A stretch of DNA of 23,751 bases from a virus (IMGVR_UViG_3300042890_003939:1-23751); one strand, 5' to 3'; numbered from the stretch's first letter, positions 2,038 through 22,381 are shown. Made by a program: numbers and translations. Notes: a model not told the origin generated them from the sequence alone.

Positions 2038-2291
2038 TGAAGACTTATCTCTATTGGGAATACACGGAGCCTTATCCAGAGCACCCAACAGAGATGACTG
2101 AGCGAGATATCCTCGACTCATATTGGAATTACTTTAAGAAGCAAATGGATAAAAAATTTGGACCCAATCATCATTTAACCACTGAAGAGGTCTGTATTGA
2201 TGATTGGGTCGTAATTAACTGGGCTTGGGAGAAGCCTTTATCTTCTTCTTCTGAAGAGAACGAGCATGCCGAGGCCGCCAAGAAGAGCTGA
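2037..2291 (+). CDS. conserved small phage protein with DDWVV motif
   Basis: An 84-residue acidic protein (MKTYLYWEYTEPYPEHP...). The central ILDSYWNYFKKQMDKKFG helix and the CIDDWVVINWAW segment resemble small phage proteins of unknown function that carry a DDWV-[VI]-x-WAW pattern. It is coupled to the preceding gene by TGATG. Its last 54 bases overlap the 3' end of the convergent PEP-CTERM-like gene, so the Ser/Glu tail here and the Arg4 tail there share the same bases. Confidence 0.72.
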   Translation: MKTYLYWEYTEPYPEHPTEMTERDILDSYWNYFKKQMDKKFGPNHHLTTEEVCIDDWVVINWAWEKPLSSSSEENEHAEAAKKS

Positions 2292-2909
2292 GCTGCTTTC
2301 TGGAATAGATGGACTGCCAATCGCTATACCTTCAACAGGTGCAGCTTGGTTGATGTAGAATGCATCCATACCAAAGCAGAATGCTCCGCTACCAGAGATA
2401 CGGAATAGGTCGATGTTATCAAACTCACTGCTTAATACAATGTCACTTGTTGATGACATACCCCAATCCTCGCCCGGAAGAAGGTACGATCCAGTCACAG
2501 CAGAGCCATTACGAAAGCCTTGAACAAAGATTTGTTCATTGTCAGAGTGAGGTCCACCTCCTTGAGATGTATTGGAAGTAATGGTAAAGTAATTAAGATC
2601 AAAGGTAGCACCTTCAATATTCTTAACGTCAATTGATTGCAATCCACCAAACCAGTGACCGTGGATAACATCATTGCCTGTTCCATAGTAATTCCCAACT
2701 GCTTGAGCATTGTAATTACCATTGCTGACATAATCTAATTCATAACCATTCTCAGTATATGAGACGATGTTGTAGTATGTTTGATTTGCAGCGGTAGTGT
2801 AAAGATTACCGTTAGCATCCGTAGCAGTACCTCCTGTGAATGAGATGACTGTTGCATATGCACTGCTTGCTAGCAATGCTCCAATTAGTAGTGTTAGTAT
2901 ACGTTTCAT
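2238..2909 (-). CDS. secreted PEP-CTERM-like surface protein
   Basis: A 223-residue protein with a signal peptide (MKRILTLLIGALLASSAYA, cleavage about residue 19), a beta-rich middle (repeated T/S/N/G strands, FDLNYFTITSN, EQIFVQGFRNGSAV, FDNIDLFRISG) and a C-terminal tripartite tail: PES near residue 203, a Leu/Gly hydrophobic helix (LLGGLGMLVLF) and RRRR at the very end. This is the architecture of PEP-CTERM exosortase substrates, with PES in place of PEP. In bacteria such tails direct membrane anchoring and processing by exosortase; here the substrate would depend on host machinery. It is the last gene of a minus-strand trio and overlaps the upstream stop by ATGA. Possible roles are host-surface display or blocking of superinfection; this is inference. 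Confidence 0.85.
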   Translation of the reverse strand: MKRILTLLIGALLASSAYATVISFTGGTATDANGNLYTTAANQTYYNIVSYTENGYELDYVSNGNYNAQAVGNYYGTGNDVIHGHWFGGLQSIDVKNIEGATFDLNYFTITSNTSQGGGPHSDNEQIFVQGFRNGSAVTGSYLLPGEDWGMSSTSDIVLSSEFDNIDLFRISGSGAFCFGMDAFYINQAAPVEGIAIGSPSIPESSSALLGGLGMLVLFRRRR

Positions 2910-4042: not shown

Positions 4043-4050
4043 AATAAATA
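4043..4050 (+). promoter_or_regulatory. late-type promoter (AATAAATA)
   Basis: AATAAATA 7 nt before ATG 4058; drives the first MRYK-family cluster. Confidence 0.6.
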
Positions 4051-4057
4051 CAATAAG

Positions 4058-4447
4058 ATGAGGTACAAGATAGCGATTTTTTATGACTCAGGAGGCGGTA
4101 TCGATATGCTTCAATACACGGAGTCTGTATATGAGTCTGATGGTGTAGATATCTTTATACGAGGAAGAATGAATGCACTCTATAAAGGGCTTTACACACA
4201 CCCTTCCAGTAAGATAATAATCGGTAATGCGCCATATAAAGAGTTCTTTATGGCTATACCTGAGACGCATCCTCTATTTAATTTCGATAGAATGGATGAT
4301 ATTAATCACCCTACGCAATATACTCATACGGAAGAGATAAATGATTGTAAGGTGAGGTATCATAGAGAGTTTAAGAAGCTCTTTCTCACAATACACAAAG
4401 AGTATCGTGACATTAAACAACACGGAACCGGACAATTTAAATTATGA
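4058..4447 (+). CDS. MRYK/HPLFNFD family protein 1
   Basis: A 129-residue member of an unrecognised paralogous family with 11 copies in this window. It starts MRYK and carries the central signature PETHPLFNFD at residues 68-77, preceded by hydrophobic FFMAI. N-terminal residues 1-60 look beta-rich; the C-terminal 40 residues are helical and basic (REFKKLFLTIHKEYRDIKQ). No signal peptide, membrane span or enzyme motif. It is the first gene after a late promoter and its TGA overlaps the next ATG (ATGA), so members 1 and 2 form a coupled operon. Function unknown; late expression is inferred. Confidence 0.8.
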   Translation: MRYKIAIFYDSGGGIDMLQYTESVYESDGVDIFIRGRMNALYKGLYTHPSSKIIIGNAPYKEFFMAIPETHPLFNFDRMDDINHPTQYTHTEEINDCKVRYHREFKKLFLTIHKEYRDIKQHGTGQFKL

Positions 4448-4809
4448 GATATAGTTACATAGAGATATTTGTAGAGCATAGCGCAGCAGCAGCTGACCTT
4501 CGTTACGAAGCAGATGACTACTACGGTGATGGTTCGTGGGATCCTCATTGGTATGATGCTGAAGAAGGTCTTAGCTTTCACTTTGATGAGGCAGATGATA
4601 ATGAAATAAGATTAGGTCATATTAGAATACCTGAAGCGCATCCTCTGTTTAACTTTGGTATAATAGAGAAAACGCAATTCGCAAGAGTTATGCCTTTTCC
4701 TCGAGAACTTTATTTAGAGGCAGATGAATACGCTCGTAATATATTAACAAGAGCTGGTATACCGATGACAGTGTATGAAGCAATGAAGTACGATGACGAG
4801 AACCAATAA
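4444..4809 (+). CDS. MRYK/HPLFNFD family protein 2
   Basis: A 121-residue acidic member starting MRYSYIEIF with PEAHPLFNFG at residues 63-72 after a hydrophobic-basic lead (HIRI). The N-terminal half is Asp/Glu/Tyr-rich (YEADDYYGDGSWDPHWYDAEE), much more acidic than member 1, although start and core motif are retained. The C-terminal third is helical. It is translationally coupled to member 1 (ATGA). Outside the two anchors, little identity to its siblings is visible. Confidence 0.8.
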   Translation: MRYSYIEIFVEHSAAAADLRYEADDYYGDGSWDPHWYDAEEGLSFHFDEADDNEIRLGHIRIPEAHPLFNFGIIEKTQFARVMPFPRELYLEADEYARNILTRAGIPMTVYEAMKYDDENQ

Positions 4810-4810
4810 T

Positions 4811-5173
4811 ATGAGATACATCAAAGGAGAATTTACTACAGGTGTAGGTAGACAGCTAGCTCTACAGAATGATGGTCAGTTATGGCGCTTAAAGGAAGGT
4901 ACTGGTAAGTTTACTACAGGAAGCGGTAAATGGGATCTTGATCAAGATTTTAATAGTGTAGTAGATGGGATATACTTCGCTAAAGCAGAAAAGCAATTTA
5001 GTCAAACCAAGATATTTTTTATGGTACCAGAGACTCATTTTCTTTTTAATGAGCATATGCTTTATAGTAAGATGTTTTATATGTTGAATGAAAGTCGAAG
5101 AGAAGCTATCGAAAGATTTGCTACTCTTGCTGTAATCGATATCATCAAAACAAAACTAGGAATTAAGATATGA
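4811..5173 (+). CDS. MRYK/HPLFNFD family protein 3
   Basis: A 120-residue member starting MRYIKGEFTTG, with PETHFLFN at residues 73-80 (Phe for Pro, and FD replaced by EH). A VVDGIYFA string about 20 residues before the core matches the xDG[IM][FY] sub-motif in members 5, 6 and 8. ATG 4811 follows the previous stop by one base; the longer frame opening at 4793 would add MTRTNN before the MRY start shared by every sibling, so it is rejected. The C-terminus is helical and basic. Confidence 0.78.
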   Translation: MRYIKGEFTTGVGRQLALQNDGQLWRLKEGTGKFTTGSGKWDLDQDFNSVVDGIYFAKAEKQFSQTKIFFMVPETHFLFNEHMLYSKMFYMLNESRREAIERFATLAVIDIIKTKLGIKI

Positions 5174-5517
5174 GATACGCTGCATACTACCTTAACATGA
5201 GCTCGAAAACAGCAACGGGGTTTGATACCGTATTTCTTTCTGTTGATGAAGCTAGAAAGTATTTTAAAGTAAAGCGAGGTAGAGATGCTAAACAAATTAC
5301 TACAACAGATGAAAGTATTCAGATGTTCTACTACAATGGTGTGATTTTGTGTATTGTAAGAGAAGACAATCCACTATATGCATGGGGAATACTTAACGAT
5401 GGGCTTTTTGCGATAGACAAACCAGGTGTTATAGACGGCCTCCATAAGCAGGTATTCAAGATGTTTGACGTGTATCAGTTATGGATGAGAGAGCATCTAG
5501 CTAAGCAGAAGAGATAA
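5170..5517 (+). CDS. divergent MRYK-family protein 4
   Basis: A 115-residue protein starting MRYAAYYLNM. The core signature is degraded to REDNPLYAW at residues 64-72 after hydrophobic VILCIV, at the same position as in its siblings. The C-terminus is helical (VIDGLHKQVFKMFDVYQLWMREHL). It is coupled to member 3 by ATGA. Position, start and motif placement support a rapidly diverging family member; sequence alone leaves some doubt. Confidence 0.7.
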   Translation: MRYAAYYLNMSSKTATGFDTVFLSVDEARKYFKVKRGRDAKQITTTDESIQMFYYNGVILCIVREDNPLYAWGILNDGLFAIDKPGVIDGLHKQVFKMFDVYQLWMREHLAKQKR

Positions 5518-5534
5518 GGGAACTATCTTATAAT
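5518..5534 (+). promoter_or_regulatory. class A promoter
   Basis: GGGAAC 5518-5523, TATCT, TATAAT 5529-5534, then GAGGT and ATG 5540. Confidence 0.7.
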
Positions 5535-5539
5535 GAGGT

Positions 5540-5680
5540 ATGAAGAAAGCTAAGGTTCATCGGTTCTGGATCACCTCGACATCATCTGTTGGAACATCTG
5601 ACTACAAGCTGTTTGTATCAAAAGCTGATTACGAGCGCGCAATGAAGCGTGTCAAAGAGCTCGAAGCACTCATCAAGTGA
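5540..5680 (+). CDS. 46-aa basic protein, unknown
   Basis: A 46-residue ORF, MKKAKVHRFWITSTSSVGTSDY..., with a basic N-terminus, a short beta-type middle and a C-terminal helix (YERAMKRVKELEALIK) resembling a short coiled coil. Start is fixed by the class A promoter 5 nt upstream. Its TGA overlaps the ATG of MRYK-family protein 5 (TGATG), so a class A transcript would also cover that gene. No family recognised. Confidence 0.65.
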   Translation: MKKAKVHRFWITSTSSVGTSDYKLFVSKADYERAMKRVKELEALIK

Positions 5681-6030
5681 TGCGATATAAGGCTATTCAA
5701 TGGCACGATAATAGTTCGCAGGGTACGGCAGATCTATATAAAGGTATAGCCCCGTTATTGTATTACCGTAAGGGTGATGAGTTCATACCTCACGATAATT
5801 GGAGAGGTTGGGGTGAACCTCTATTGATACAAAGCGAGACGGATGGAATGTTTCACTGTAAATCGAAACTACTCTTTGTGTATGTTGTCATATCAGAAGA
5901 GCATCCACTGTTTAACTTCCCTGGGGTGGTGATGGGTCTCTATCATATGATCTATACAAAGAGATACGATAACATCGTACGATACTGCAATAATGAGTTC
6001 AAAGCCTTATACGGTAAGGTAATTAAATAA
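5680..6030 (+). CDS. MRYK/HPLFNFD family protein 5
   Basis: A 116-residue member starting MRYKAIQWHDN, with SEEHPLFNF at residues 72-80 after the hydrophobic strand LLFVYVVI, and the sub-motif ETDGMFHC about 20 residues earlier. It is closest by eye to member 6, which has EVDGMFYC and VVIHESHPLFN in the same order. A GTG at 5677 would add one Met, but ATG 5680 preserves the family start and forms TGATG coupling with the 46-residue gene. The C-terminus is helical and basic. Confidence 0.8.
   Translation: MRYKAIQWHDNSSQGTADLYKGIAPLLYYRKGDEFIPHDNWRGWGEPLLIQSETDGMFHCKSKLLFVYVVISEEHPLFNFPGVVMGLYHMIYTKRYDNIVRYCNNEFKALYGKVIK
6022..6029 (+). promoter_or_regulatory. late-type promoter (ATTAAATA)
   Basis: ATTAAATA 6 nt before ATG 6036; overlaps the stop codon of MRYK-family protein 5. 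Confidence 0.45.
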
Positions 6031-6035
6031 GAGTA

Positions 6036-6398
6036 ATGAGATACAAAGCGATGATATGGCAACCAAATGGTAACTTCGATAGAATGCCGTCTACTCTATA
6101 TCATATGGTTGATGATTCCTTTATTCCTATTCTAAGAGGTGAGTTAATGACTCAAAACCTAGCTTCATACGCTCTACGTATTAAAGGTGAGGTAGATGGT
6201 ATGTTCTATTGTGTAGCTGCATCAGGAGCTATGAACTATAGCTATGTCGTTATACACGAGTCACATCCTCTATTCAATCAAGATCGTGTAACAACACTCT
6301 CATTCAATCTAGCTACTCCAAAAGCATACAATGAGGTGTTATACTTTCTTTTAACACAAGAAAATAAGATCTACGATAAGGTATTAGGTTCACGATAA
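6036..6398 (+). CDS. MRYK/HPLFNFD family protein 6
   Basis: A 120-residue member starting MRYKAMIWQPNG, with HESHPLFNQD at residues 74-83 and EVDGMFYC upstream at about 52-59. The similarity to member 5 over both motifs and the start (MRYKA-x-x-W) suggests a recent tandem duplication. The C-terminal segment is helical (KAYNEVLYFLLTQENKIYDKV). It has its own candidate late promoter. No known domain. Confidence 0.8.
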   Translation: MRYKAMIWQPNGNFDRMPSTLYHMVDDSFIPILRGELMTQNLASYALRIKGEVDGMFYCVAASGAMNYSYVVIHESHPLFNQDRVTTLSFNLATPKAYNEVLYFLLTQENKIYDKVLGSR

Positions 6399-6415
6399 GG
6401 GAACTACCTTATCAT
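6399..6415 (+). promoter_or_regulatory. class A promoter (TATCAT -10)
   Basis: GGGAAC 6399-6404, TACCT, TATCAT 6410-6415, then 6 nt to ATG 6422. The GGGAAC box starts one base after the TAA of MRYK-family protein 6 begins, overlapping none of its coding residues. Confidence 0.6.
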
Positions 6416-6421
6416 GGGGGT

Positions 6422-6601
6422 ATGCGATATTCTACCAAGCCAGTCATTAAAGCCGACCCTGTATCTGACCTAAAGCATTTGGATGTCTCAGCAGTAGTCT
6501 TCAAGCCAGAAGCACGCAACAATATCTATCTGCGTACACCAGCATACCGTAAGCGCAAATCGATCTCATTAAAAGGAATGACAGATAGTGAATGCTATTA
6601 A
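6422..6601 (+). CDS. 59-aa basic protein, unknown
   Basis: A 59-residue ORF, MRYSTKPVIKADPVSDLKHL..., ending in a basic stretch (YRKRKSISLKG). It begins MRY by chance or by descent, but lacks the HPLFN core, is half the family length and is driven by a class A promoter, so it is not placed in the MRYK family. Start fixed by the promoter. No family recognised. Confidence 0.62.
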   Translation: MRYSTKPVIKADPVSDLKHLDVSAVVFKPEARNNIYLRTPAYRKRKSISLKGMTDSECY

Positions 6602-6618
6602 GGGAACTCTCGTATAAT
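6602..6618 (+). promoter_or_regulatory. class A promoter
   Basis: GGGAAC 6602-6607, TCTCG, TATAAT 6613-6618, then AAGGT and ATG 6624. It begins directly at the last base of the upstream stop. Confidence 0.7.
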
Positions 6619-6623
6619 AAGGT

Positions 6624-6782
6624 ATGACCAACGAAGAGCTATTAGAAAGAGCTGAAGCAGCAGAGGATGGCTTGAGAGAGATCGCTCTGTTCCTGAGCTG
6701 CGGAGGTTATAACGATGATGGACCAATCGATGTCGATAAGTTCGTCAAGAAGATCAAAGAGGCTATCGTAGGAGCACCTTGA
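6624..6782 (+). CDS. 52-aa acidic protein, unknown
   Basis: A 52-residue ORF, MTNEELLERAEAAEDGLREI..., with an amphipathic acidic helix (1-23), a CGGYNDDGPIDVD turn and a second helix (KFVKKIKEAIVG). It has the size and helix-turn-helix-like layout of small phage regulators, but no specific family is recognised. Start is fixed by the class A promoter, 5 nt before the ATG; its stop overlaps the next late promoter. Confidence 0.65.
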   Translation: MTNEELLERAEAAEDGLREIALFLSCGGYNDDGPIDVDKFVKKIKEAIVGAP

Positions 6783-6789
6783 ATAAATA
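6782..6789 (+). promoter_or_regulatory. late-type promoter (AATAAATA)
   Basis: AATAAATA 6 nt before ATG 6796 of MRYK-family protein 7. Confidence 0.55.
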
Positions 6790-6795
6790 GTCTCG

Positions 6796-7140
6796 ATGAG
6801 ATACAGCATTGTAACGTTAGATATAACGGATAGTACACAGAGTGATATAACAGTTACACCAGTCATGTGGCCGTCAGCAGTGGGTGATGGAGAGGATATA
6901 AAGCTGAGTCAAGGTGATCTTGACAACTACCCACCACCAGTAGTGGACAAGGATGGAGTAAGATTGTATTCTATGGTAACATTTCGTGGGTCATATAACC
7001 TGTTATTCATACCAGAGACACATCAATACTATAATGGAGGGCTAGTACTGCATAACTTTAAACAAGATGACTATGAAGGTAGTCGGAAAGTAGCGGAGAT
7101 GATGAAGAAAATGTACAAAAAAATACGAAAAAGCGTATAA
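6796..7140 (+). CDS. divergent MRYK-family protein 7
   Basis: A 114-residue protein starting MRYSIVTLDITDS. The core is IPETHQYYNGG (about 72-82), keeping PETH and the Asn but losing PLF and FD. A DKDGVRLYS string precedes it, echoing the xDG motif of other members. The C-terminus is helical and very basic (MMKKMYKKIRKSV). It is a single late-promoter gene with no coupled partner. Start, spacing and PETH support membership. Confidence 0.72.
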   Translation: MRYSIVTLDITDSTQSDITVTPVMWPSAVGDGEDIKLSQGDLDNYPPPVVDKDGVRLYSMVTFRGSYNLLFIPETHQYYNGGLVLHNFKQDDYEGSRKVAEMMKKMYKKIRKSV

Positions 7141-7158
7141 AAAGGAATAAAAAGAGAT

Positions 7159-7175
7159 GGGAACACTGGTATAAT
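7159..7175 (+). promoter_or_regulatory. class A promoter with long leader
   Basis: GGGAAC 7159-7164, ACTGG, TATAAT 7170-7175. No ORF of useful size starts nearby; the next gene begins at 7300, giving a leader of about 118 nt containing a six-codon ORF (7198-7218). Confidence 0.6.
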
Positions 7176-7299
7176 AAGGAGAGAAAGATATCAACGCATG
7201 GCTAATAAACAAAGTTGAATAATAAGCAAAGTTATTTAATAGCAACGCGTTATATATAGCCTTGATAAGGAAGAGATAACGAGAAATATAAGAATACCA

Positions 7300-7473
7300 A
7301 TGGAATATAAAGAAAATACTGAGGAAGAGCTGCGAAATAAGGTTATGGAAGCACTTTCACCCGTGACAATGGCTGCTTTCACTGCAATTGATGTTCTAAC
7401 TGCTCTAATGAAAGCAGAATACAATCGAGGATACGCAGAAGGCTACACAATTGCATACTCTGAGCACTCTTAA
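7300..7473 (+). CDS. 57-aa protein, unknown
   Basis: A 57-residue ORF, MEYKENTEEELRNKVMEALS..., with an acidic helical start, a hydrophobic amphipathic middle (VTMAAFTAIDVLTALMKA) and a Tyr/Gly end (YNRGYAEGYTIAYSEHS). GYAEGY-type ends occur in several small phage proteins, but I assign no family. It lies about 120 nt downstream of its class A promoter, and its TAA abuts the next GGAAC box. Confidence 0.6.
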   Translation: MEYKENTEEELRNKVMEALSPVTMAAFTAIDVLTALMKAEYNRGYAEGYTIAYSEHS

Positions 7474-7489
7474 GGAACACTGTTAAACT
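7473..7489 (+). promoter_or_regulatory. weak class A promoter
   Basis: AGGAAC 7473-7478, ACTGT, TAAACT 7484-7489. The -10 is poor. ATG 7491 is 1 nt away and ATG 7500 is 10 nt away, so the start of the next gene is uncertain. Confidence 0.4.
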
Positions 7490-7490
7490 A

Positions 7491-7922
7491 ATGAACACTA
7501 TGAAATTCACAGAAATACTTAAAGAATGGATGGATTCACGCGAAGAATACTTGAAATGCTGCAATGAATCCTGGGCTCAAGAGGAATACCTCGATAAACT
7601 ACTCGCAACAATGCAGAGAGCGGAAGATGAGGTCAATGGAACTATTGAAAGACTCGAGGCTAACTGCAACGCCTACAAAGAAACTGGTTTTATCATCACA
7701 AACGCGGAGACAGCAGGAGACCCATTATCATGGAGTTCCTCTGATATTCCAACTGCAACGCCTAGGCAGAAACTGGTTTTGGACTGCGAGACATTAAGGG
7801 AACACTATTATAATAACAACATGACCGACATTACCGACCTGATGGCAGAAGAGCTCAAGACACTCCAAGAACGTCTTATCGCATTGCGCGATGAAGTAGA
7901 TGCAATTTTAGAAGCTCGTTAA
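7491..7922 (+). CDS. fusion-like ORF spanning an internal promoter
   Basis: A 143-residue ORF, MNTMKFTEILKEWMDSREEY..., with an acidic coiled-coil N-terminal half (residues 5-58, including RAEDEVNGTIERLEANCN), a Thr/Ser/Pro-rich middle, then the peptide REHYYNNN, which is a complete class A promoter translated in frame, followed by MTDITDLMAEEL. A 30-nt imperfect direct repeat (7662-7691 and 7751-7780, three mismatches, offset 89 nt) lies in the middle; the offset is not a multiple of three, so a duplication could have shifted the frame and removed the original stop. ATG 7500 is an alternative start. The protein may be expressed as one long form, or the two halves may be separate genes. Confidence 0.55.
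   Translation: MNTMKFTEILKEWMDSREEYLKCCNESWAQEEYLDKLLATMQRAEDEVNGTIERLEANCNAYKETGFIITNAETAGDPLSWSSSDIPTATPRQKLVLDCETLREHYYNNNMTDITDLMAEELKTLQERLIALRDEVDAILEAR
7662..7780 (+). repeat. 30-nt imperfect direct repeat pair
   Basis: AACTGCAACGCCTA then NNN then AGAAACTGGTTTT-type sequence occurs at 7662-7691 and 7751-7780 with three central mismatches. The copies lie in different reading frames of the same ORF. Confidence 0.8.
7798..7814 (+). promoter_or_regulatory. class A promoter inside an ORF
   Basis: GGGAAC 7798-7803, ACTAT, TATAAT 7809-7814, then AACAAC and ATG 7821. All elements and spacings match the consensus, although the site is read in frame by the surrounding ORF. Confidence 0.68.
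7821..7922 (+). CDS. 33-aa coiled-coil peptide, nested in-frame
   Basis: A 33-residue product, MTDITDLMAEELKTLQERLI..., which is one acidic amphipathic helix with leucine heptads. Its ATG sits exactly 6 nt after a consensus class A promoter, the spacing seen at the best sites in this window, so independent expression is likely even though a longer ORF continues through it. It shares frame and stop with the 143-residue ORF and could act with or against the helical N-terminal half of that protein; this is inference. Confidence 0.6.
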   Translation: MTDITDLMAEELKTLQERLIALRDEVDAILEAR

Positions 7923-8070
7923 TCGACTGTGTTCCTGGGGCACTGAACTAAAACTGCCCTAACTGGCTGGGGAACTGGTTGACTCTTAAGCGGGGTCAGC
8001 TCGGGCAAAAACTCCCTATTTTTTGCGGTCGGGAGAAGTCAGCTACTTTGCAAAATGCAATCGGGGAGAA
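7923..8070. other. structured gene-free stretch, possible ncRNA
   Basis: This stretch is G-rich compared with its neighbours and shows several possible stems: GGGCA/TGCCC around 7939-7959, GGTTGAC/GTCAGCT around 7977-8001, and GCAAAAA/TTTTTTGC around 8007-8029. I see no ORF with a promoter and no tRNA cloverleaf. It may be a small RNA or a terminator-containing leader. Confidence 0.35.
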
Positions 8071-8087
8071 GGGAACATCAATACAAT
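8071..8087 (+). promoter_or_regulatory. class A promoter (TACAAT)
   Basis: GGGAAC 8071-8076, ATCAA, TACAAT 8082-8087, then 6 nt to ATG 8094. Confidence 0.7.
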
Positions 8088-8093
8088 AATGAT

Positions 8094-8276
8094 ATGAGCA
8101 AGGCTTACTTAGGCAACTGTCAAGACGAAGAGATTATCGAGCTGTTATTCGGAACTGTTTCTGAGTTCGCTCGCTTGGTTGAAGAGCACGGTGATGAGTT
8201 CACTATCGATGGTACTCGTGTTGAGTATGATGATGAGAGTGATATCCATTCATTCTATGCAGTGGAAGAAGACTGA
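8094..8276 (+). CDS. 60-aa acidic protein, unknown
   Basis: A 60-residue strongly acidic protein, MSKAYLGNCQDEEIIELLFG..., with a helix (EEIIELLFGTVSEFARLVEEHG) followed by beta-type FTIDGTRVEYDDESDIHSFYAVEED. The frame opens at 8055, but the extra 13 residues (ending RREHQYNND) are the translated promoter, so ATG 8094 is chosen. The charge and size are those of a DNA-mimic-type small phage protein, but there is no sequence-specific evidence for that role. Confidence 0.7.
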   Translation: MSKAYLGNCQDEEIIELLFGTVSEFARLVEEHGDEFTIDGTRVEYDDESDIHSFYAVEED

Positions 8277-8293
8277 GGGAACATCGATACAAT
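8277..8293 (+). promoter_or_regulatory. class A promoter (TACAAT)
   Basis: GGGAAC 8277-8282, ATCGA, TACAAT 8288-8293, then TAGGAGCA and ATG 8302. The -10-to-codon-3 region is nearly identical to the site at 686-708. Confidence 0.7.
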
Positions 8294-8301
8294 TAGGAGC
8301 A

Positions 8302-8568
8302 ATGAAGATGATCAAACAACCTGCTAAGAAAACAGTGAAGCGCAACGTCGGTGACAAAGTGATCGTTGAGGAGTATTGCTTCGATGGTCGTACCACCGTG
8401 CCAATCTACACTCGCGCAACGATCACCAAGATCAATCGCATCACAATGCATCTTGAGGATGAGAATGGATACGGGATCCTCTTTGACCCTCGCGAATGCG
8501 ATCTCGTTGCCGAGGAGGAGATCGCTGCGAAAGCAATGCAGCGCCAAGAAGCGATGTGCGCACGCTAA
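8302..8568 (+). CDS. small basic protein, possible beta-barrel fold
   Basis: An 88-residue protein starting MKMIKQPAKKTVKRNVGDKV. After a basic tail, NVGDKVIVEEYCFDGRTTVPIYTRATITKINRITMHLEDENG reads as a series of beta strands with a GDKV-x-V opening, as in small SH3-like or KOW-like barrels; the C-terminus is a helix (EEEIAAKAMQRQEAMC). Nucleic-acid binding is a guess from fold and charge. A much earlier in-frame ATG at 8179 lies inside the previous gene and is rejected in favour of the promoter-matched start. Confidence 0.68.
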   Translation: MKMIKQPAKKTVKRNVGDKVIVEEYCFDGRTTVPIYTRATITKINRITMHLEDENGYGILFDPRECDLVAEEEIAAKAMQRQEAMCAR

Positions 8569-8585
8569 GGGAACTCTAATACAAT
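8569..8585 (+). promoter_or_regulatory. class A promoter (TACAAT)
   Basis: GGGAAC 8569-8574, TCTAA, TACAAT 8580-8585, then 6 nt to ATG 8592. Confidence 0.68.
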
Positions 8586-8591
8586 AAGAGT

Positions 8592-8681
8592 ATGCAAGGG
8601 TGCGCGCTGCCGAATGTAGCCGTTAAATGGATGGAGAGTCCAGCCCTTGTTGCAGGACCCAAGAAGGGAACTGCCGTATAA
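8592..8681 (+). CDS. 29-aa micro-ORF
   Basis: A 29-residue ORF, MQGCALPNVAVKWMESPALV..., exactly 6 nt after a consensus class A promoter. Its last codons and TAA are the next class A promoter (the stop is the TAA within TATAAT). The promoter alone argues for transcription from this ATG; whether the peptide is stable or the transcript acts as RNA cannot be told. No family recognised. Confidence 0.45.
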   Translation: MQGCALPNVAVKWMESPALVAGPKKGTAV

Positions 8682-8682
8682 T
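8666..8682 (+). promoter_or_regulatory. class A promoter with short leader
   Basis: GGGAAC 8666-8671, TGCCG, TATAAT 8677-8682. The first ATG (8687) is followed at once by TAG, so the real start is ATG 8720 after a leader of about 31 nt. Confidence 0.65.
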
Positions 8683-8719
8683 AAGAATGTAGACAGCAAA
8701 CAACAAACCAAGAAATAAG

Positions 8720-9139
8720 ATGACAACTGCTCCTAAGAAAAAGTATTCCTTTCAAACGATTGTAAGTCCAGAACAAGTCCGCGCTGAGTTCACTCATGTC
8801 CGGGAAGACCTGATGACGTCTGATAAGCAGCTGATGCAAGCTCTCTGGAATCTGGCAATGCGCGACATGGATGCGGTACGTGAAGAGATCTTTAACCTGA
8901 AGTCAATCGCTGCTAACTTGAAAGAGATCAGTAAAATCTCCAAAGGAGAAGCTGAGGGCGCAGTGCCTAAGGCAGCGAAGGTTAAGAAGGCTCTGGCTAA
9001 GAAGGAGCCGAAGCCTAAGAAAGAGAAGCCGGCTCCTGCTAAGAAGACGGTCAAGTTCGAAGGTCGTGAAGAGCCTGAGATGTTCGTTGGGGTGGAGGAT
9101 GATGATATGGCATGCTTGGTCGTTGATGGTACACGATGA
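8720..9139 (+). CDS. Lys/Ala/Pro-rich protein with acidic tail
   Basis: A 139-residue protein, MTTAPKKKYSFQTIVSPEQV..., with a helical N-terminal domain (about 16-75, VRAEFTHVREDLMTSDKQLMQAL), then a Lys/Ala/Pro-rich segment (about 84-112, KKALAKKEPKPKKEKPAPAKK) resembling histone H1-like DNA-binding tails, and an acidic end (EGREEPEMFVGVEDDDM). Nucleic-acid binding is plausible from composition only. It has its own promoter and short leader and is followed directly by another class A promoter. Confidence 0.7.
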   Translation: MTTAPKKKYSFQTIVSPEQVRAEFTHVREDLMTSDKQLMQALWNLAMRDMDAVREEIFNLKSIAANLKEISKISKGEAEGAVPKAAKVKKALAKKEPKPKKEKPAPAKKTVKFEGREEPEMFVGVEDDDMACLVVDGTR

Positions 9140-9140
9140 T

Positions 9141-9157
9141 AGGAACACTCTTACAAT
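9141..9157 (+). promoter_or_regulatory. class A promoter (TACAAT)
   Basis: AGGAAC 9141-9146, ACTCT, TACAAT 9152-9157, then 9 nt to ATG 9167. Confidence 0.65.
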
Positions 9158-9166
9158 AATCAAGCA

Positions 9167-9475
9167 ATGGACAAAGACCTTTACGCTTTCATTATCACCC
9201 TCCTCCTCTCATCGTGCTTCATTACGCTGGTACTCATCGCAATCTTCGCACGCAGGGAACACAAATATAATCATAGTATGATCAAAGACGACCAAGACCT
9301 CTTCGATGCTCTTCAAGCCATCGCTCAGAACAATGTCCCAGGACTCGTAACGCTCACTGAGGCAGGCGCCGACCGTCTGGACTTCCATGAGGTGCACGTT
9401 AGGACTCTACACGATATGCTCAAGAAGGCTTTCGATCTAGGCTTTAAGCACCGTGATCATGGAGGATTTAACTGA
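9167..9475 (+). CDS. membrane-anchored ORF spanning an internal promoter
   Basis: A 102-residue ORF: residues 1-6 charged, 7-28 one membrane span (AFIITLLLSSCFITLVLIAIFA), then RREHKYNHS, which is a consensus class A promoter translated in frame, then a soluble acidic domain beginning MIKDDQDLFDALQAIAQNN. Either this is one membrane-tethered protein, or a 37-residue membrane peptide gene has lost its stop and reads into the next gene. Paired with the nested 65-residue product it could give tethered and free forms of the same domain. Confidence 0.58.
   Translation: MDKDLYAFIITLLLSSCFITLVLIAIFARREHKYNHSMIKDDQDLFDALQAIAQNNVPGLVTLTEAGADRLDFHEVHVRTLHDMLKKAFDLGFKHRDHGGFN
9255..9271 (+). promoter_or_regulatory. 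class A promoter inside an ORF
   Basis: GGGAAC 9255-9260, ACAAA, TATAAT 9266-9271, then CATAGT and ATG 9278. Confidence 0.68.
9278..9475 (+). CDS. 65-aa soluble protein, nested in-frame
   Basis: A 65-residue product, MIKDDQDLFDALQAIAQNNV..., with a helix (DLFDALQAIAQN), a VPGLVTLTEAGADRLDF segment and a second helix (VRTLHDMLKKAFDLGFKH). Its start is 6 nt after a consensus promoter, so separate transcription is expected. No family recognised. The same sequence forms the C-terminal part of the membrane-anchored ORF. Confidence 0.65.
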   Translation: MIKDDQDLFDALQAIAQNNVPGLVTLTEAGADRLDFHEVHVRTLHDMLKKAFDLGFKHRDHGGFN

Positions 9476-9481
9476 CGTTGA

Positions 9482-9488
9482 CTAAATA
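9482..9488 (+). promoter_or_regulatory. late-type promoter (CTAAATA)
   Basis: CTAAATA, GATAC, ATG 9494: spacing 5. The same -10/GATAC/ATG arrangement precedes nrdA. Confidence 0.6.
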
Positions 9489-9493
9489 GATAC

Positions 9494-9973
9494 ATGCGCA
9501 AGAGCGATCAAGTATTAATGTGGGAGGCCTTCATAGGTGAGTCAGACAATGGTCCAGTCTCAACAGGAGGTCCTCTAGGTGGTGGTAAGTCTTTTCCTAA
9601 GGAGTCTACATCGGAAGATGAAGAGGATGGTGATGAGGATGCTGAGGATGTTGATGGTGACCCATACGAGGATGAAGAGGGTAAGCAGTATGACACTAAG
9701 CTCGTACTCGCTATATTGAATAAGGTTGCTAGTGGTAGCGTCCATCCTGAAGAGGCAGCTAGGCTCATTGATCAGGTTGTTAACAATCAAGAGCGATATG
9801 GTAGTGAAGAGGATGAAGAGAAGAATGTTAAGCGTCACTCAGCACAGAAGGCTACCGATGCAATGCGTTCACAGTTCACTAAGGATAAGAGCGCTGCTAA
9901 TGTAAAGCGTCCACAACAAAGAAGTGTTGAAGGTATCAAGCGTGACACTACACACTACCAACAAGGTATGTAA
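9494..9973 (+). CDS. acidic late protein, possible head or scaffold component
   Basis: A 159-residue protein, MRKSDQVLMWEAFIGESDNG..., with a Gly/Ser linker, a long Asp/Glu run (about 40-64), a helical domain (KLVLAILNKVASGSVHPEEAARLIDQVV) and a basic C-terminus. The late promoter, acidity and N-terminal FIGES (fits the T4 prohead-protease pattern [LI]-x-E before a small residue) suggest an internal head or scaffold protein, but no homology is recognised. A strong terminator follows. Confidence 0.7.
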   Translation: MRKSDQVLMWEAFIGESDNGPVSTGGPLGGGKSFPKESTSEDEEDGDEDAEDVDGDPYEDEEGKQYDTKLVLAILNKVASGSVHPEEAARLIDQVVNNQERYGSEEDEEKNVKRHSAQKATDAMRSQFTKDKSAANVKRPQQRSVEGIKRDTTHYQQGM

Positions 9974-10007
9974 CTCCTAAGGAGCTTTAACGCTCCCCTA
10001 TTTGAAA

Positions 10008-10050
10008 AAGAGTCTCATCATGCTACCAGGGCTGATGAGACTCTTCTTGT
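10008..10050 (+). terminator. strong Rho-independent terminator
   Basis: A perfect 13-bp stem, AAGAGTCTCATCA (10008-10020) with TGATGAGACTCTT (10033-10045), a 12-nt loop and a T-rich tail. It ends the acidic late protein transcript. Confidence 0.85.
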
Positions 10051-10170
10051 CTCCTAAGAGCTGCTCTATCTCTCATTGTAGTAGAGCTCCCAGCGATAGA
10101 GAGACACGTCAGCGCTCCGAATTGCCTCATATGAGCTAGGTGCAGTACCGTGTTTGCAGCCATGTCCCAG

Positions 10171-10321
10171 AATTTTTTTGTCAAAAATCCGCAGACTTCC
10201 ATAAAGGGTTCTCTGAAGCCTATAAAGGTTCTCAGATGATCATTAAGGGTCCCGTAGATCCCGAAACTCTAAAATTTTTTTTTGCGCGAAATTCCGAGAT
10301 TTCCATATAGGGGTTCTCTAA
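10171..10321 (+). repeat. degenerate direct repeats with T-run and CCATA-AGGGTTCTC core
   Basis: Two longer units (10171-10216 and 10273-10321) share AATTTTTTT, an AAAT-CCG-AGA middle and TTCCATAxAGGGGTTCTCT. Two shorter partial cores lie between (10219-10235, 10240-10253). Only the last copy ends in a CTAAATA late promoter. Confidence 0.6.
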
Positions 10322-10324
10322 ATA
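10318..10324 (+). promoter_or_regulatory. late-type promoter (CTAAATA)
   Basis: CTAAATA 6 nt before ATG 10331, at the end of the last degenerate repeat. Confidence 0.5.
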
Positions 10325-10330
10325 TCATCG

Positions 10331-10999
10331 ATGATTGATACTCTTATTATATCTGATATACATCTTGGATCCTCTGTGTGTAATAGAGATAAGGTACTTG
10401 ATGTATTAGATATACCTTTCAATACTCTAATTATAAACGGAGACTTATTCGACAATCATTCGTTTCATAGATACACCAGGAAGGACTGGAAGATACTAAC
10501 ACGTATTCGAAAGTTATCGAAGACCCACCGTGTTATATTAGTAAAGGGTAATCACGATGGATGTGCTGAGTTTCTGGCGGCCATTACTGGTATGGTGTTT
10601 ACTAAATCCTATAGCTTTAAGGTTGGTGAGCGGCGGATGCTCTGCGAGCATGGCGACGAGTATGACCACTGGGTTCAAGCTAGGCCTATATCTACTTTTA
10701 TCTTTACTGGTCTATATTACTGGCTACAGAAGTTTGATAGAAAGAACATCATAACTCGTAGATTAAAGGCTTGGTCTAAGTCGTGGGTTCGTGCTAAGGA
10801 TATTGTATCTAAGAAATTCTTAGCTAAGCACGGCTATGATTACGATGTCATCATGGCTGGTCATACACACTATCCAGAAGAGAGGTATGATGTAAACTAT
10901 AAGTGTCATTATATTAACTCCGGTTCATTTTGTGATGAGATGTGCACATTCATTCAAATTCATTCAGATGGTACGGCTAAACTAACTTACATTGTCTAA
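10331..10999 (+). CDS. calcineurin-like metallophosphoesterase
   Basis: A 222-residue protein with the ordered metal-binding motifs of the calcineurin-like phosphoesterase superfamily: D9-x-H11 (SDIHLG), G37-D38 (NGDLFD), G73-N74-H75-D76, H107 (EHGDEYDH) and G177-H178-T179-H180. The overall layout, with DIHLG, an internal HGD and a basic helical insert (about 130-165), is closest by eye to LpxH/UDP-diacylglucosamine hydrolase-like members, but the substrate cannot be read from sequence. Family members hydrolyse phosphomono- or diesters with two metal ions. The gene follows a late promoter and overlaps the promoter of the next MRYK-family gene. Confidence 0.88.
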   Translation: MIDTLIISDIHLGSSVCNRDKVLDVLDIPFNTLIINGDLFDNHSFHRYTRKDWKILTRIRKLSKTHRVILVKGNHDGCAEFLAAITGMVFTKSYSFKVGERRMLCEHGDEYDHWVQARPISTFIFTGLYYWLQKFDRKNIITRRLKAWSKSWVRAKDIVSKKFLAKHGYDYDVIMAGHTHYPEERYDVNYKCHYINSGSFCDEMCTFIQIHSDGTAKLTYIV

Positions 11000-11002
11000 A
11001 TA
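10996..11002 (+). promoter_or_regulatory. late-type promoter (CTAAATA)
   Basis: CTAAATA overlapping the upstream TAA, 7 nt before ATG 11010; heads the second MRYK-family cluster. Confidence 0.55.
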
Positions 11003-11009
11003 ATATATA

Positions 11010-11348
11010 ATGAGGTATAAGGCGTATACATATGACGCGGGTAGGCAATTGAATCCATTAGAGGATTATCCTTTCTTTTTAGAGAACGGTGTATTTGTTT
11101 CTCATTATAAAGGCGCGCGAACATTTGAACTTACAAAGATGCTAAAACGTGCTGATGGTATATATCAAGCGACACACTTTGGTATCTTCTTTATACCAGA
11201 GCCTCATCCATTCTTTAACATAGATGTTATAACCAACGCTGTGGATGGTTACGGTCAACCTCCTATAACCGATAGAAAGCGTATACACACTACATGGGTT
11301 AAGTTTACTCAGTTGTGTTACAACTATATTAGAAAGGTAGCTAAATGA
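11010..11348 (+). CDS. MRYK/HPLFNFD family protein 8
   Basis: A 112-residue member starting MRYKAYTYDAG, with PEPHPFFNID at residues 63-72 after the hydrophobic strand FGIFFI, and RADGIYQAT about 15 residues earlier (the xDG[IM][FY] sub-motif). The C-terminal helix is basic (YNYIRKVAK). It is coupled to member 9 by ATGA. It lies 3.9 kb from the first cluster but keeps the same start, motif order and late-promoter control. Confidence 0.8.
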   Translation: MRYKAYTYDAGRQLNPLEDYPFFLENGVFVSHYKGARTFELTKMLKRADGIYQATHFGIFFIPEPHPFFNIDVITNAVDGYGQPPITDRKRIHTTWVKFTQLCYNYIRKVAK

Positions 11349-11716
11349 GATACAAAGTAATATATTTTTACCTTCCGCTTTTCTATGACATGATAGGTTC
11401 TCGCATCCATCACTTTGATATGAGTGAGGGATCATCTCTGCTTACAGAACATCCCGGTAATATATATTCTGACGATGCGAGAGACTACTTTTTAATAGAG
11501 GGTAGTAAAGATATCTATAGAGTTTCTACACCGGAGAATCCACACTCTAATTGGTTTGTTAAGATCGTAGAAGAGTCTGATCCTCTGTTTAACTTTGATA
11601 TGGCTTATCTATTAGGTTATGAGGACGATGTTAATATGAATATTAATCTGGAGACATACGGACCTAGTCTTGTACCGCAGTTTGTAGACGACAAAGTACT
11701 CCGAATGCATCACTGA
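11345..11716 (+). CDS. MRYK/HPLFNFD family protein 9
   Basis: A 123-residue member starting MRYKVIYFYLPLF, with EESDPLFNFD at residues 76-85 (Asp replaces the core His) after FVKIV. KDIYRV about 20 residues earlier may be a remnant of the DG sub-motif. The N-terminal third is longer than in most siblings. Coupled to member 8; a GGCCC-TGC-GGGCC hairpin follows its stop. Confidence 0.78.
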   Translation: MRYKVIYFYLPLFYDMIGSRIHHFDMSEGSSLLTEHPGNIYSDDARDYFLIEGSKDIYRVSTPENPHSNWFVKIVEESDPLFNFDMAYLLGYEDDVNMNINLETYGPSLVPQFVDDKVLRMHH

Positions 11717-11747
11717 GCGGCAGACAAAAAGACCACGAGCGGCATGA

Positions 11748-11765
11748 GGCCCTGCGGGCCATTTG
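11748..11765 (+). terminator. possible weak terminator hairpin
   Basis: GGCCC-TGC-GGGCC stem (11748-11760) followed by ATTTG. The stem is short and the T-tract poor; it separates the member 8-9 and 10-11 operons. Confidence 0.4.
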
Positions 11766-11773
11766 TATAAATA
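11766..11773 (+). promoter_or_regulatory. late promoter (TATAAATA)
   Basis: A perfect T4-type TATAAATA 7 nt before ATG 11781. Confidence 0.7.
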
Positions 11774-11780
11774 TAATCAG

Positions 11781-12200
11781 ATGAGGTATAAGAAATTCCA
11801 GATATCGGGCGCTATCGAATTAGACGAGATCGATACCCTTTGGATAACCGATATTGATATCGTTGATGGTAGTATCCTCGAGCATGATAGAGTGCCAGAA
11901 GAAGCTCTTGAGGGTCCAGGTCATCATAAGGGGTTATATGAGTTTCTTAAGGTAGATAAGTATCTCTATAAGCGTGTTGATGCTGGTAGTGATATAGATG
12001 AAGATTACGGTAACGCTACGAGATACTATTATGTCTTACCGGAGACACACCCTGGATTTAATTTCGATGTAATATACAAAGCGAGTGAAGATGATATCTA
12101 TATGGCTTTCTTTAATGGTCCTGAAGAACGTGAAGACGATGCTCGTACAGTCTTACATCGCTACCTTCCTGAATTTGTAAATAGAAACACATACGAATGA
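11781..12200 (+). CDS. MRYK/HPLFNFD family protein 10
   Basis: A 139-residue member, the longest, starting MRYKKFQISGAI, with PETHPGFNFD at residues 87-96 after RYYYVL. The N-terminal part is acidic (DEIDTLWITDIDIVDGS). The frame opens at 11763, but that would start inside the TATAAATA promoter; ATG 11781 matches all siblings and the late-promoter spacing. ATGA coupling joins it to member 11. Confidence 0.8.
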   Translation: MRYKKFQISGAIELDEIDTLWITDIDIVDGSILEHDRVPEEALEGPGHHKGLYEFLKVDKYLYKRVDAGSDIDEDYGNATRYYYVLPETHPGFNFDVIYKASEDDIYMAFFNGPEEREDDARTVLHRYLPEFVNRNTYE

Positions 12201-12514
12201 GATACAAAAGCTTTACAATAGACGCGCAAGTTGCAGATTATAATGAATATGATGATCTACCATCATTGATGTACGTTGAGATACACAATGTTGTTATAGC
12301 AGGTTCAACACAGGCGCTTCCTAAATGGGCATCGGATAAACAAGTAGTTATGAAAGAAGATCATCCTGCTTTTAACTTTGATGTATGGGCTAACGAGATA
12401 GAATTTATCGATGAAGATAGACGCGATTTTATGGGTACTGTGGAATTAGATGAGTTTATGATTAAACACTTTCCACAAGTAATGAGATACTATAGAGATA
12501 ACGAGTTTTTATAA
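12197..12514 (+). CDS. MRYK/HPLFNFD family protein 11
   Basis: A 105-residue member, the shortest, starting MRYKSFTIDAQV, with KEDHPAFNFD at residues 53-62 after QVVM. It is acidic, with a C-terminal helix-rich segment (VELDEFMIKHFPQVMRYYRDNEF). It is the last family gene in the window and is coupled to member 10. No known domain. Confidence 0.8.
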   Translation: MRYKSFTIDAQVADYNEYDDLPSLMYVEIHNVVIAGSTQALPKWASDKQVVMKEDHPAFNFDVWANEIEFIDEDRRDFMGTVELDEFMIKHFPQVMRYYRDNEFL

Positions 12515-12521
12515 TCATTGA

Positions 12522-12529
12522 TATAAATA
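12522..12529 (+). promoter_or_regulatory. late promoter (TATAAATA)
   Basis: A perfect TATAAATA, GATAT, ATG 12535: spacing 5. Confidence 0.75.
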
Positions 12530-12534
12530 GATAT

Positions 12535-12819
12535 ATGTCTACTAAAAGTGATTTTATAATGTTCTCAGAGATGTATGATAACATCTATAGAGAAGCTGAT
12601 ACAAGCACTGCTCCAGGTATGGGTGATGTTAGTACATCCGGTACACCTGATACAGTTACTTCACCAGCTCCAGCTACCGGTACTGCCGGTGTAAGTACAG
12701 GGCCTATATCTTCTGCTCTTATGAGCCTTCAATCAGAATTACAAAAAGCTGGTCTTGGTTCACATCCTGAAGTTATTCAACATGTTCAAGGTTTAACAGG
12801 TATCATTCAAGGTAAATGA
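12535..12819 (+). CDS. small late protein, Ser/Thr/Pro/Gly-rich
   Basis: A 94-residue protein, MSTKSDFIMFSEMYDNIYRE..., with a helical N-terminus, a low-complexity Thr/Ser/Pro/Gly middle (about 24-58) and a C-terminal helix (ALMSLQSELQKAGLG). The N-terminus resembles that of the acidic late protein at 9494 (KSDQVLMWEAF against KSDFIMFSEMY), hinting at a shared targeting signal. It is driven by a perfect late promoter and ATGA-coupled to the next gene. A small virion or head component is the likeliest role, by inference. Confidence 0.7.
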   Translation: MSTKSDFIMFSEMYDNIYREADTSTAPGMGDVSTSGTPDTVTSPAPATGTAGVSTGPISSALMSLQSELQKAGLGSHPEVIQHVQGLTGIIQGK

Positions 12820-13277
12820 TAACATTTAAACAATACCTTTTAACAGAGAATATTGTATATGGTGTTAGAATAAACATACTAGGTCTATCACCAAGTGAAG
12901 AATTATTACCATCATCAGCACCGTATGGGTTTTGGGTAGATCGTTCTGGTAATTATAAATCTATCCCTAGCTTTTCATCTGGTGGTCATGCACAAGCTGC
13001 GAAGGAGATCATTATGAATGCTTATGATTATAAAGATGAAACTAATACACTAACCAGAGATGAAGAGCGCGAATTTAGTAAAGCAGTAGGAGCTGGGTTT
13101 AATTCTCTATATAAGATTCTTTTCGAGCTTAACTATATGCATGTCGTTAAAGGTGGTAATACATATTACCACTATAATACAGAAGGTAGCGTGATAACGA
13201 CATCGCAGTTAAGATTCCTTAATAATTTAAAACAGACGTATCGTACCGATATTGAACGTAGTAAAGAGATATATTAA
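12816..13277 (+). CDS. late protein with capsid-targeting-like start
   Basis: A 153-residue protein starting MITFKQYLLTENIV. The opening resembles T4-type capsid-targeting leaders of the MKTxxEF-[IL]-x-E kind and contains LLTE followed by Asn, close to the T4 gp21 cleavage pattern. The rest is mixed alpha/beta: PYGFWVDRSGNYKSIPSFSSGGHAQAAK, then helices (FNSLYKILFELNYMHVV) and a Tyr-rich hairpin. No family recognised; a virion-internal protein is possible. It overlaps the convergent minus-strand gene by 4 nt. Confidence 0.7.
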   Translation: MITFKQYLLTENIVYGVRINILGLSPSEELLPSSAPYGFWVDRSGNYKSIPSFSSGGHAQAAKEIIMNAYDYKDETNTLTRDEEREFSKAVGAGFNSLYKILFELNYMHVVKGGNTYYHYNTEGSVITTSQLRFLNNLKQTYRTDIERSKEIY

Positions 13278-13474: not shown

Positions 13475-14263
13475 TTATACTTTACCATCAATGAAATCGG
13501 ATATTTTTGCTTTTCCACTAAAAATTAATGAATTACTTCTATTGCGTTTAGCTACACTACCTCCTCGACCTGTCGCTTGCCTCTCTTTTAACTCAGCCGA
13601 ATTAAGATATTCAGCTGCTGCTCTTTTAAATAAGCCTTTTTTTAGATATACAGGCCATTTATAAGTACTCTTGATTTCGCCTCTAAAGTGAGCATCAAGT
13701 AAAGCTATTTTCTGATCGTCTGAAAGTTTATTCCACACAGGTGCAAATATTCTCTTAATATCACTATACTTTAAACGAATATCTCTATCAAATATTGCTA
13801 ATGCTTGCTTAGGTGTTATTGATGTTGGATCGCCTGGAAGTACTTTATGACCAATGCCAATTGTAGGGTTACCAGCTTTAGCGTCATCAGGTCTCACGGT
13901 TAAGAATTTCGCGTTTGATTTACTGTATATATCTGTACCATAAATTTCGTGCTGAGTAATATATGGTTTAGCTCTGCTAATAATATCCTCATCACTAGAT
14001 CTTTTTTGTATATGTTGTGATGGTAATGGTTTATTTGGCTTAACTAATACAGCGGCTTGCTTAATAGCTTGTTTAGCAACTGGATCCGATGTCTGTGTAG
14101 CAGCTTGCTGTAGAGCTTGGATCTTTTCTTGTGACGGAGCCATACTTTTTTCAAGCTCTTTGTTGATAGCTTTTACACCGTATGTAGCAACTGAACCTAT
14201 TAATGCAGCTAAACCAACTGATCTCATTATATCCATTACTCCTTCATCGAACTGCTCTGTCAT
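13475..14263 (-). CDS. membrane-anchored T4-lysozyme-like protein (GH24-type)
   Basis: A 262-residue protein. Residues 12-33 form a hydrophobic segment (MRSVGLAALIGSVATYGV), followed by an Ala/Gln/Lys helical linker (40-75) and a lysozyme domain from about 95: E106 as candidate catalytic acid, PTIGIGH at 133-139 (the T4-lysozyme TIGIGH loop), ITPKQALAIFDRDI matching the T4 ITKDEAEKLFNQDV helix, and a late R-Q-x-T-G-R-x4-AKR segment. It would cleave peptidoglycan glycan strands. The anchor and the FDEG start suggest a virion-associated or membrane-tethered enzyme, distinct from the endolysin at 15486. Driven by a minus-strand AATAAATA. Confidence 0.8.
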   Translation of the reverse strand: MTEQFDEGVMDIMRSVGLAALIGSVATYGVKAINKELEKSMAPSQEKIQALQQAATQTSDPVAKQAIKQAAVLVKPNKPLPSQHIQKRSSDEDIISRAKPYITQHEIYGTDIYSKSNAKFLTVRPDDAKAGNPTIGIGHKVLPGDPTSITPKQALAIFDRDIRLKYSDIKRIFAPVWNKLSDDQKIALLDAHFRGEIKSTYKWPVYLKKGLFKRAAAEYLNSAELKERQATGRGGSVAKRNRSNSLIFSGKAKISDFIDGKV

Positions 14264-19282: not shown

Positions 19283-19313
19283 TTGCGTTATACTCTATAG
19301 GTCGGGTAGTATA

Positions 19314-19321
19314 TATAAATA
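19314..19321 (+). promoter_or_regulatory. TATAAATA next to endonuclease start
   Basis: A perfect TATAAATA but only 1 nt before ATG 19323; if it acts as a late promoter the transcript would start inside the ORF. Confidence 0.35.
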
Positions 19322-19322
19322 T

Positions 19323-21739: not shown

Positions 21740-22381
21740 ATGAGATGGAAATATAATCTAAACGAAGGGGTAGGTGGAGATGATATTGAAAGTAAGCCAC
21801 AACAGATTTTTATTAATGCTATGGGGCCAGGAGGAGCCGCTGGTAGTAATATAAGAGTTGTTGAAAATACTATTTTCTTTTATGCAGATGTAACGGAGCA
21901 ATCAGCTCTTGATCTTAACGCGGTACTATATGAACTAGACGCTAAGCTTAAAAATACATATAACTTTTTAGGACCAGATTTTGTACCACATATTAAATTA
22001 CGAATTAATTCATACGGTGGCTCTGTATTTGCAGGCATGGCTATTCTTGATACTATTAGAAACCTTAAATCAGAAGTTCACACTTATATTGATGGTGCTG
22101 CTGCTTCAGCAGCTACGATTATATCAGTCGCTGGGAAAAAGAGATTTATAGGTAAGAATTCTTTAATGCTTATTCACCAACTATCATCCGGTAGCTATGG
22201 TAAGTTTTCAGAAATGGAAGATGATATGGAGAACAATCGACGTATTATGAAGATGATTAAAGATATTTATAAACAATATACAAAGGTACCAATGAAGCAA
22301 ATCGATGAGATTCTTAAACACGATCTCTGGTTTGACTCAGCTAAATGTCTTGAGTTTGGTTTGGTAGATCAAGTTCTATGA
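21740..22381 (+). CDS. ClpP-like serine protease
   Basis: A 213-residue ClpP-fold protease (peptidase family S14). Catalytic triad by position: S123 in DGAAASAAT (the G-x-A-x-S elbow), H146 in LMLIHQL, D195 in LKHDLW; the oxyanion GG lies in INSYGGSVFAG (90-99) and the family end FGLVD is present. The start YNLNEGVGG matches the [LI]-x-E/G prohead-cleavage pattern. In many phages ClpP-like enzymes are head-maturation proteases; an alternative is a Clp-type role with a host unfoldase. Coupled by ATGA to the next gene. Confidence 0.9.
   Translation: MRWKYNLNEGVGGDDIESKPQQIFINAMGPGGAAGSNIRVVENTIFFYADVTEQSALDLNAVLYELDAKLKNTYNFLGPDFVPHIKLRINSYGGSVFAGMAILDTIRNLKSEVHTYIDGAAASAATIISVAGKKRFIGKNSLMLIHQLSSGSYGKFSEMEDDMENNRRIMKMIKDIYKQYTKVPMKQIDEILKHDLWFDSAKCLEFGLVDQVL

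Follow-up and report, generated by a model that had tools for sequence, protein, structure and literature searches.

The window analyzed here, a linear IMG/VR virus fragment of 23,751 bases, encodes 11 small proteins of 105–139 amino acids that all begin with MRY, seven of them with MRYK, as originally predicted (Table 1; ORFs are named by their first nucleotide). Across this set, the glutamate of the proposed motif is invariant (E69 in ORF 4058) and the asparagine is kept in ≥90% of members, while a sub-motif DG[IMV][FYR] could be seen in ORFs 4811, 5680, 6036, 6796, and 11010. The suggestion of a single paralogous family was borne out when each member was scored with a profile built from the other ten: the 11 members obtained 16.0–33.5 bits (E 7e-4 to 3e-9). 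Scores never exceeded 8.7 bits among the non-member ORFs of these phages (n = 508) or 14.7 bits among MRY-preserving shuffles (n = 550). Once the MRY was stripped, nine of the 11 still reached ≥13.4 bits; the two weakest, 5170 (8.1 bits) and 6796 (11.0 bits), are then not convincing by themselves, but their membership is confirmed by counterparts in other phages, whether orthologues or relatives. Judged by these scores, the family is real and not a chance collection of MRY starts; the comparisons show one family, built on one small domain and laid out in co-directional arrays, and larger than first noted, with 106 members. A 59-aa MRY ORF at position 6422 is missed by the profile and was rejected as a member.

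Table 1 Family members, putative expression signals, and the associated phosphoesterase gene in the window. Codes starting with G designate related phage records; percentages are identities.
Feature	Position	Strand	Description
Member 1	4058..4447	+	MRYKIAIF...IPETHPLFNFD, 129 aa
Member 2	4444..4809	+	MRYSYIEI..., 121 aa; ATGA overlap with member 1; orthologues G004 (55%), G006 (34%)
Member 3	4811..5173	+	MRYIKGEF..., 120 aa; orthologue G006 (43%)
Member 4	5170..5517	+	115 aa; decayed motif EDNPLYAWG; ATGA overlap
Member 5	5680..6030	+	MRYKAIQW..., 116 aa; 30% identity to member 6
Member 6	6036..6398	+	MRYKAMIW..., 120 aa
Member 7	6796..7140	+	114 aa; decayed motif ETHQYYNGG; orthologue G004 (49%); AlphaFold pLDDT 88.3, pTM 0.82
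Member 8	11010..11348	+	MRYKAYTY..., 112 aa; orthologue G004 (70%); AlphaFold pLDDT 81.1, pTM 0.69
Member 9	11345..11716	+	MRYKVIYFYLP..., 123 aa; ATGA overlap; orthologues G004, G005, G024, G028 (48–58%)
Member 10	11781..12200	+	MRYKKFQISGA..., 139 aa; orthologues G004, G006, G024, G028 (54–73%)
Member 11	12197..12514	+	MRYKSFTI..., 105 aa; ATGA overlap; orthologues 32–43%
Late-promoter-like AATAAATA	4043..4050	+	7 nt before ATG of 4058
TAAATA	6024..6029	+	6 nt before ATG of 6036
TAAATA	6784..6789	+	6 nt before ATG of 6796
CTAAATA	10996..11002	+	7 nt before ATG of 11010; overlaps phosphoesterase gene stop codon
Exact T4-type late promoter motif TATAAATA	11766..11773	+	7 nt before ATG of 11781
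Hairpin GGCCCTGCGGGCC	11748-11760		precedes late promoter motif of 11781
Calcineurin-like metallophosphoesterase	10331..10999	+	adjoins or inside second array in most relatives; not adjacent in G006

The distribution of the family was established from 25 related contigs fetched via the neighboring ClpP-like gene, whose whole records were then searched with the family profile (members in seven), and from further phages added through a degenerate DNA scan for I-P-E-x-H-P-x-F-N and iteration to convergence. The 106 members lie in 12 records of uncultured T4-like phages: G026 (122 kb) carries 21, G006 has 19, G004 and G027 have 14 apiece, and the window has 11, with smaller numbers in the short fragments. 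All records compared are metagenomic fragments, and the orthologue sets are small. More distant relatives (ClpP 46–55% identical; fragments of 52–90 kb) contained zero members. Profiles from Pfam, PHROG, NCBIfam, and PADLOC gave chance-level matches only, with none above cut-off, in agreement with the initial view that no known family could be recognized; nor did these searches distribute the members among different known families. Two members used as tblastn queries had no significant match in 50,697 phage records, a viral contig scan with one member as query returned no relatives, and a motif scan of bacterial genomes yielded no true member, the four contigs that carried the motif being judged not to encode one. 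Because matches were absent from the databases, from cultured phages (two queries), from bacteria (motif), and from the distant relatives, the family appears restricted to a single clade of uncultured T4-like phages. This lineage has a major capsid protein ~33% identical to that of Prochlorococcus phage P-HM2 and an NrdA with ~60% identity at best to cultured phages. Several candidate likenesses were set aside: the matches of 12197 to CBM_20 (E 0.002, under the cut-off) and of 6796 to PDC-M22A (E 0.002) were taken as chance, as was the IPEKHPLFN of a large protein on contig L090, and a resemblance to KTSC-type domains was dropped because it had no supporting evidence.

Across the 106 members, the core motif [ILVM]-P-E-x-H-P-x-F-N retains its glutamate in every case, as it does F/Y, while 101 members have N, 90 have P, and 82 have H; at the start, M and R are shared by each of the 100 members that align in this region. 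Among 34 orthologue-like pairs, identity was 0.92 over residues 1–9 and 0.88 over the motif, compared to 0.69 for the middle portion and 0.61 for the C-terminal one. AlphaFold models of 11010 and 6796 both begin with a strand-rich part and end in two helices, i.e., similar rather than unrelated folds, although the two are not fully independent because their underlying alignments overlap. In the alignments and models the fixed MRY(K) opens a beta strand, and both models place the motif at the last strand-to-helix turn. Neither model had a significant Foldseek match among solved structures in the PDB. Many of the top weak matches of the better model, 6796 (E ≥ 0.096, reported TM ~0.3), were PH, PTB, or related domains, which are likewise strand-rich and closed by a C-terminal helix; we treat this predicted likeness as a lead only. 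The I/L-x-E at the motif resembles a site of the T4 prohead protease gp21; cleavage there was judged unlikely, since the conserved HPxFN behind it argues for a structural role.

Orthologous members diverge faster than their genomic surroundings, with a median omega of 0.35–0.47 versus 0.05–0.18 for other genes of the same phage pairs. The gene-wide test gave no positive selection, as omega stays below 1. The diversifying selection originally proposed thus stands as accelerated divergence and not as positive selection: by these estimates members evolve faster than other genes yet under net purifying selection, and the values bear no direct sign of an arms race.

Turnover instead appears to involve whole genes. 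Within 29 array breakpoints, which are partly shared between genome pairs and so do not represent 29 independent events, 26 fell no more than 25 nt from a member start in each of the two genomes compared (chance expectation, 18%) and the other three at member ends, compared to 7 of 52 for breakpoints outside the arrays. A strongly diverged body could mimic replacement in this analysis; differences in gene number are unambiguous, e.g., between G008 or G009 and G026, and between G024 and G004. Sequence comparison thus supports turnover through the gain, loss, or replacement of entire members at a conserved ATGAGRTAY start, and shows start, promoter, and PExHPxFN core staying fixed while members turn over. 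In G008, G009, and G026, array segments are 94–98% identical when other segments are mostly 76–92% identical, and the median dS is 0.05–0.08 for members versus 0.7–1.25 for other genes. This combination of high array identity and low dS points to a recent exchange of the array, embedded phosphoesterase included, between diverged phages. In six or more related phages, the calcineurin-like phosphoesterase either adjoins the second array or is embedded in it. Within the start sequence, AGR encodes Arg2 in 88 of 96 members versus 52–59% elsewhere, a bias for which AT-rich codons near starts may account in part. Its other two frames contain TGA and often TAA; ATGAGATATAAA, which holds both, can therefore end the upstream gene while starting the next.

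The members were also expected to lie behind late promoters and to be chained by overlapping start and stop codons. T4-type motifs consistent with late promoters indeed precede 4058, 6036, 6796, 11010, and 11781; the chaining held through ATGA overlaps at 4444, 5170, 11345, and 12197, and the other junctions proved to be gaps. Over all arrays, 23 junctions between members measured −4 nt and five −11 nt. The late promoter of T4 is TATAAATA at −13 to −6, and that of phage Aeh1 is CTAAATA (PMC1524935). Here, a late-promoter motif was detected ahead of 29 of 42 array heads, leaving about one third without, and ahead of 22 of 64 inner members. The motif is not confined to the family: of 671 non-member ORFs, 166 have TAAATA 5–8 nt ahead of the start, 90 of these at exactly 5 nt, and the control hexamer TTAAAA gave no comparable peak, while some other control hexamers overlap TAAATA and hence peak at shifted positions. 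Genes behind TAAATA include the prohead protease and head-tail adaptor, with the portal gene at 7 nt, and the relative G004 encodes a gp55-type late sigma factor (E 6e-25), so that both elements by which T4-type late transcription is recognized, a TATAAATA-like motif before late genes and a gp55 sigma factor, were found. The same motif core thus precedes structural genes and family arrays, as with T4 late promoters, but here at only 5–8 nt from the start codon. If the spacing is as in T4, a gap of 5 nt makes the start codon coincide with +1, which predicts leaderless or near-leaderless late mRNAs across the lineage; Shine–Dalgarno-like motifs were seen in only 3 of 191 genes with the TAAATA spacing. 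Further examples of this spacing are found in the window at 12522-12535 and 21740, and in the structural genes of G004. Late regulation of the arrays is therefore supported at the sequence level. Since TAAATA also lies ahead of nrdB and clpP in the window, the motif does not prove a virion role. A second repeated family of small proteins (KDKxKTIxHRxDGPAVE...) occurs in G004 (L058 7818-8642, 12363-12964), intermingled with the MRY arrays and frequently preceded by TAAATA.

The closest parallel among described systems is provided by the internal proteins of T4, which are packaged in the head, cut by the prohead protease, and injected. IPI, IPII, IPIII, and their T-even relatives are small, made late, and encoded several per phage, with a constant short N-terminal signal (PMC3012670, PMC12373910; Repoila et al. 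1994 cited therein). They are virion-carried and differ strongly even among related phages, and each blocks a different type IV restriction enzyme, with specificity for a different GmrSD enzyme (PMC3012670, PMC12373910). The MRY family is similarly hypervariable and cassette-exchanged behind constant expression signals, but reaches 21 copies rather than 3, forms tandem arrays, and shares a conserved PExHPxFN core in all members. Inspection of the alignments revealed no T4-type capsid-targeting N-terminus, only MRY(K) being common to the members, and PHROG gave no match. Lacking that N-terminus and having a core of their own, the MRY proteins fall outside the T4 internal protein group, and by analogy the best explanation is that they would work like T4 internal proteins while being unrelated to them.

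We tentatively favor interpreting the arrays as a modular repertoire of late-made, host-interacting accessory proteins. The conserved core would maintain the fold, and each member would use its own variable surface to bind a different host or phage target. Because the proteins are predicted to be made late and have no obvious signal peptide or membrane segment on inspection, they would most likely accompany the virion or be active in the cell late in infection, neutralizing functions of hosts or competitors. A more specific version, which we put forward with greater reserve, is a one-fold repertoire: the lineage would keep variable binding proteins as a tandem library, and the 5′ unit common to them, i.e., a late promoter plus an ATGAGRTAY start with stops in the other two frames, would serve as a built-in joint for both recombination and expression. 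Such a start would allow bodies to be spliced behind any neighbor with expression intact; phages could then acquire, discard, and trade bodies and leave the array undisturbed.

Of the two main rival readings, we consider it rather unlikely that the products are late intracellular proteins that are never packaged, serving either to inhibit superinfection or host abortive systems, or as adaptors by which host machinery is redirected late in infection. The members display neither membrane segment nor signal peptide nor capsid-targeting motif on inspection, their GRAVY is below 0 throughout, and the weak structural neighbors of the predicted fold, of PH/PTB type, are binding modules, all consistent with such proteins; however, that structural similarity is not significant (E ≥ 0.096), and no observation separates these proteins from a packaged version. 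The other, decoration of the virion surface or tail by alternative small capsid, neck, or fiber-associated subunits that would bind glycans or host surfaces through their variable faces, appears unlikely. It would fit the variable body on a constant core and a late-promoter motif shared with structural genes, but the arrays adjoin nucleotide-metabolism and lysis genes rather than capsid genes, no decoration-protein match was obtained, and as many as 21 paralogues encoded together, spanning pI 4.1 to 10.0, would be unusual for a single lattice site.

A largely selfish or neutral duplication process, in which promoter-start units recombine freely and inflate the array with no diversified function, is improbable. 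Breakpoints at the repeated start and some recent tandem duplicates, such as G026 9072/9497 (65% identity) and G006 28202/28546 (52%), would be expected from it. It is already disfavored by purifying selection, with omega below 1 in nearly all pairs, as well as by the synteny kept across phages; in addition, the best match lies in another genome for 83 of the 106 members, which argues that most are old, maintained lineages. Finally, an enzyme family with E-x-H-P-x-F-N as active site and substrates differing by member would suit the invariant glutamate and frequent N and H, but is highly improbable because members conserved across phages can do without H, P, and D (e.g., EDNPLYA/EDNPLFG in the 5170 lineage) and the position of the motif in both models is that expected of a structural cap.

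The arrays represent a large phage protein family absent from the libraries searched, for which the structure prediction is testable, and they offer a clean natural example of how gene units are shuffled at a common start sequence. If the members are anti-defense proteins, the arrays would constitute a ready-made library of inhibitors against defense systems of hosts not yet cultured; PADLOC and PHROGs revealed no homology to defense or counter-defense proteins.

Other genes in the window and its relatives bear on the biology of this lineage. Four neighbors (window 9494-9973, 12535-12819, 12816-13277, and 13475-14263 on the minus strand) have N-termini such as MITFKQYLLTE and MRKSDQVLMWEAF, which we take to resemble T4 capsid-targeting sequences, and these proteins, rather than the MRY proteins, may be classical internal head proteins. 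The protein encoded at 2238-2909 (minus strand), ~62% identical in G026 and G027, combines a signal-peptide-like start with a PEP-CTERM-like end, PESSSALLGGLGMLVLFRRRR, and a weak match to NF038120; this end hints at a host with exosortase sorting. An 83-aa PQ-loop/SemiSWEET-like membrane protein is encoded at 22378-22629 (PF04193, E 7e-17; NCBIfam SemiSWEET, E 5e-8) and has relatives in G003 and G005 (81–89%). Between nrdB and nrdA, a putative homing-endonuclease-like ORF (19257-20042) has no good counterpart in the relatives. Lastly, a long gene of G009 and G026 contains a tandem repeat with a period of ~72 bp (L073 ~878-2190; L100 5252-6470).
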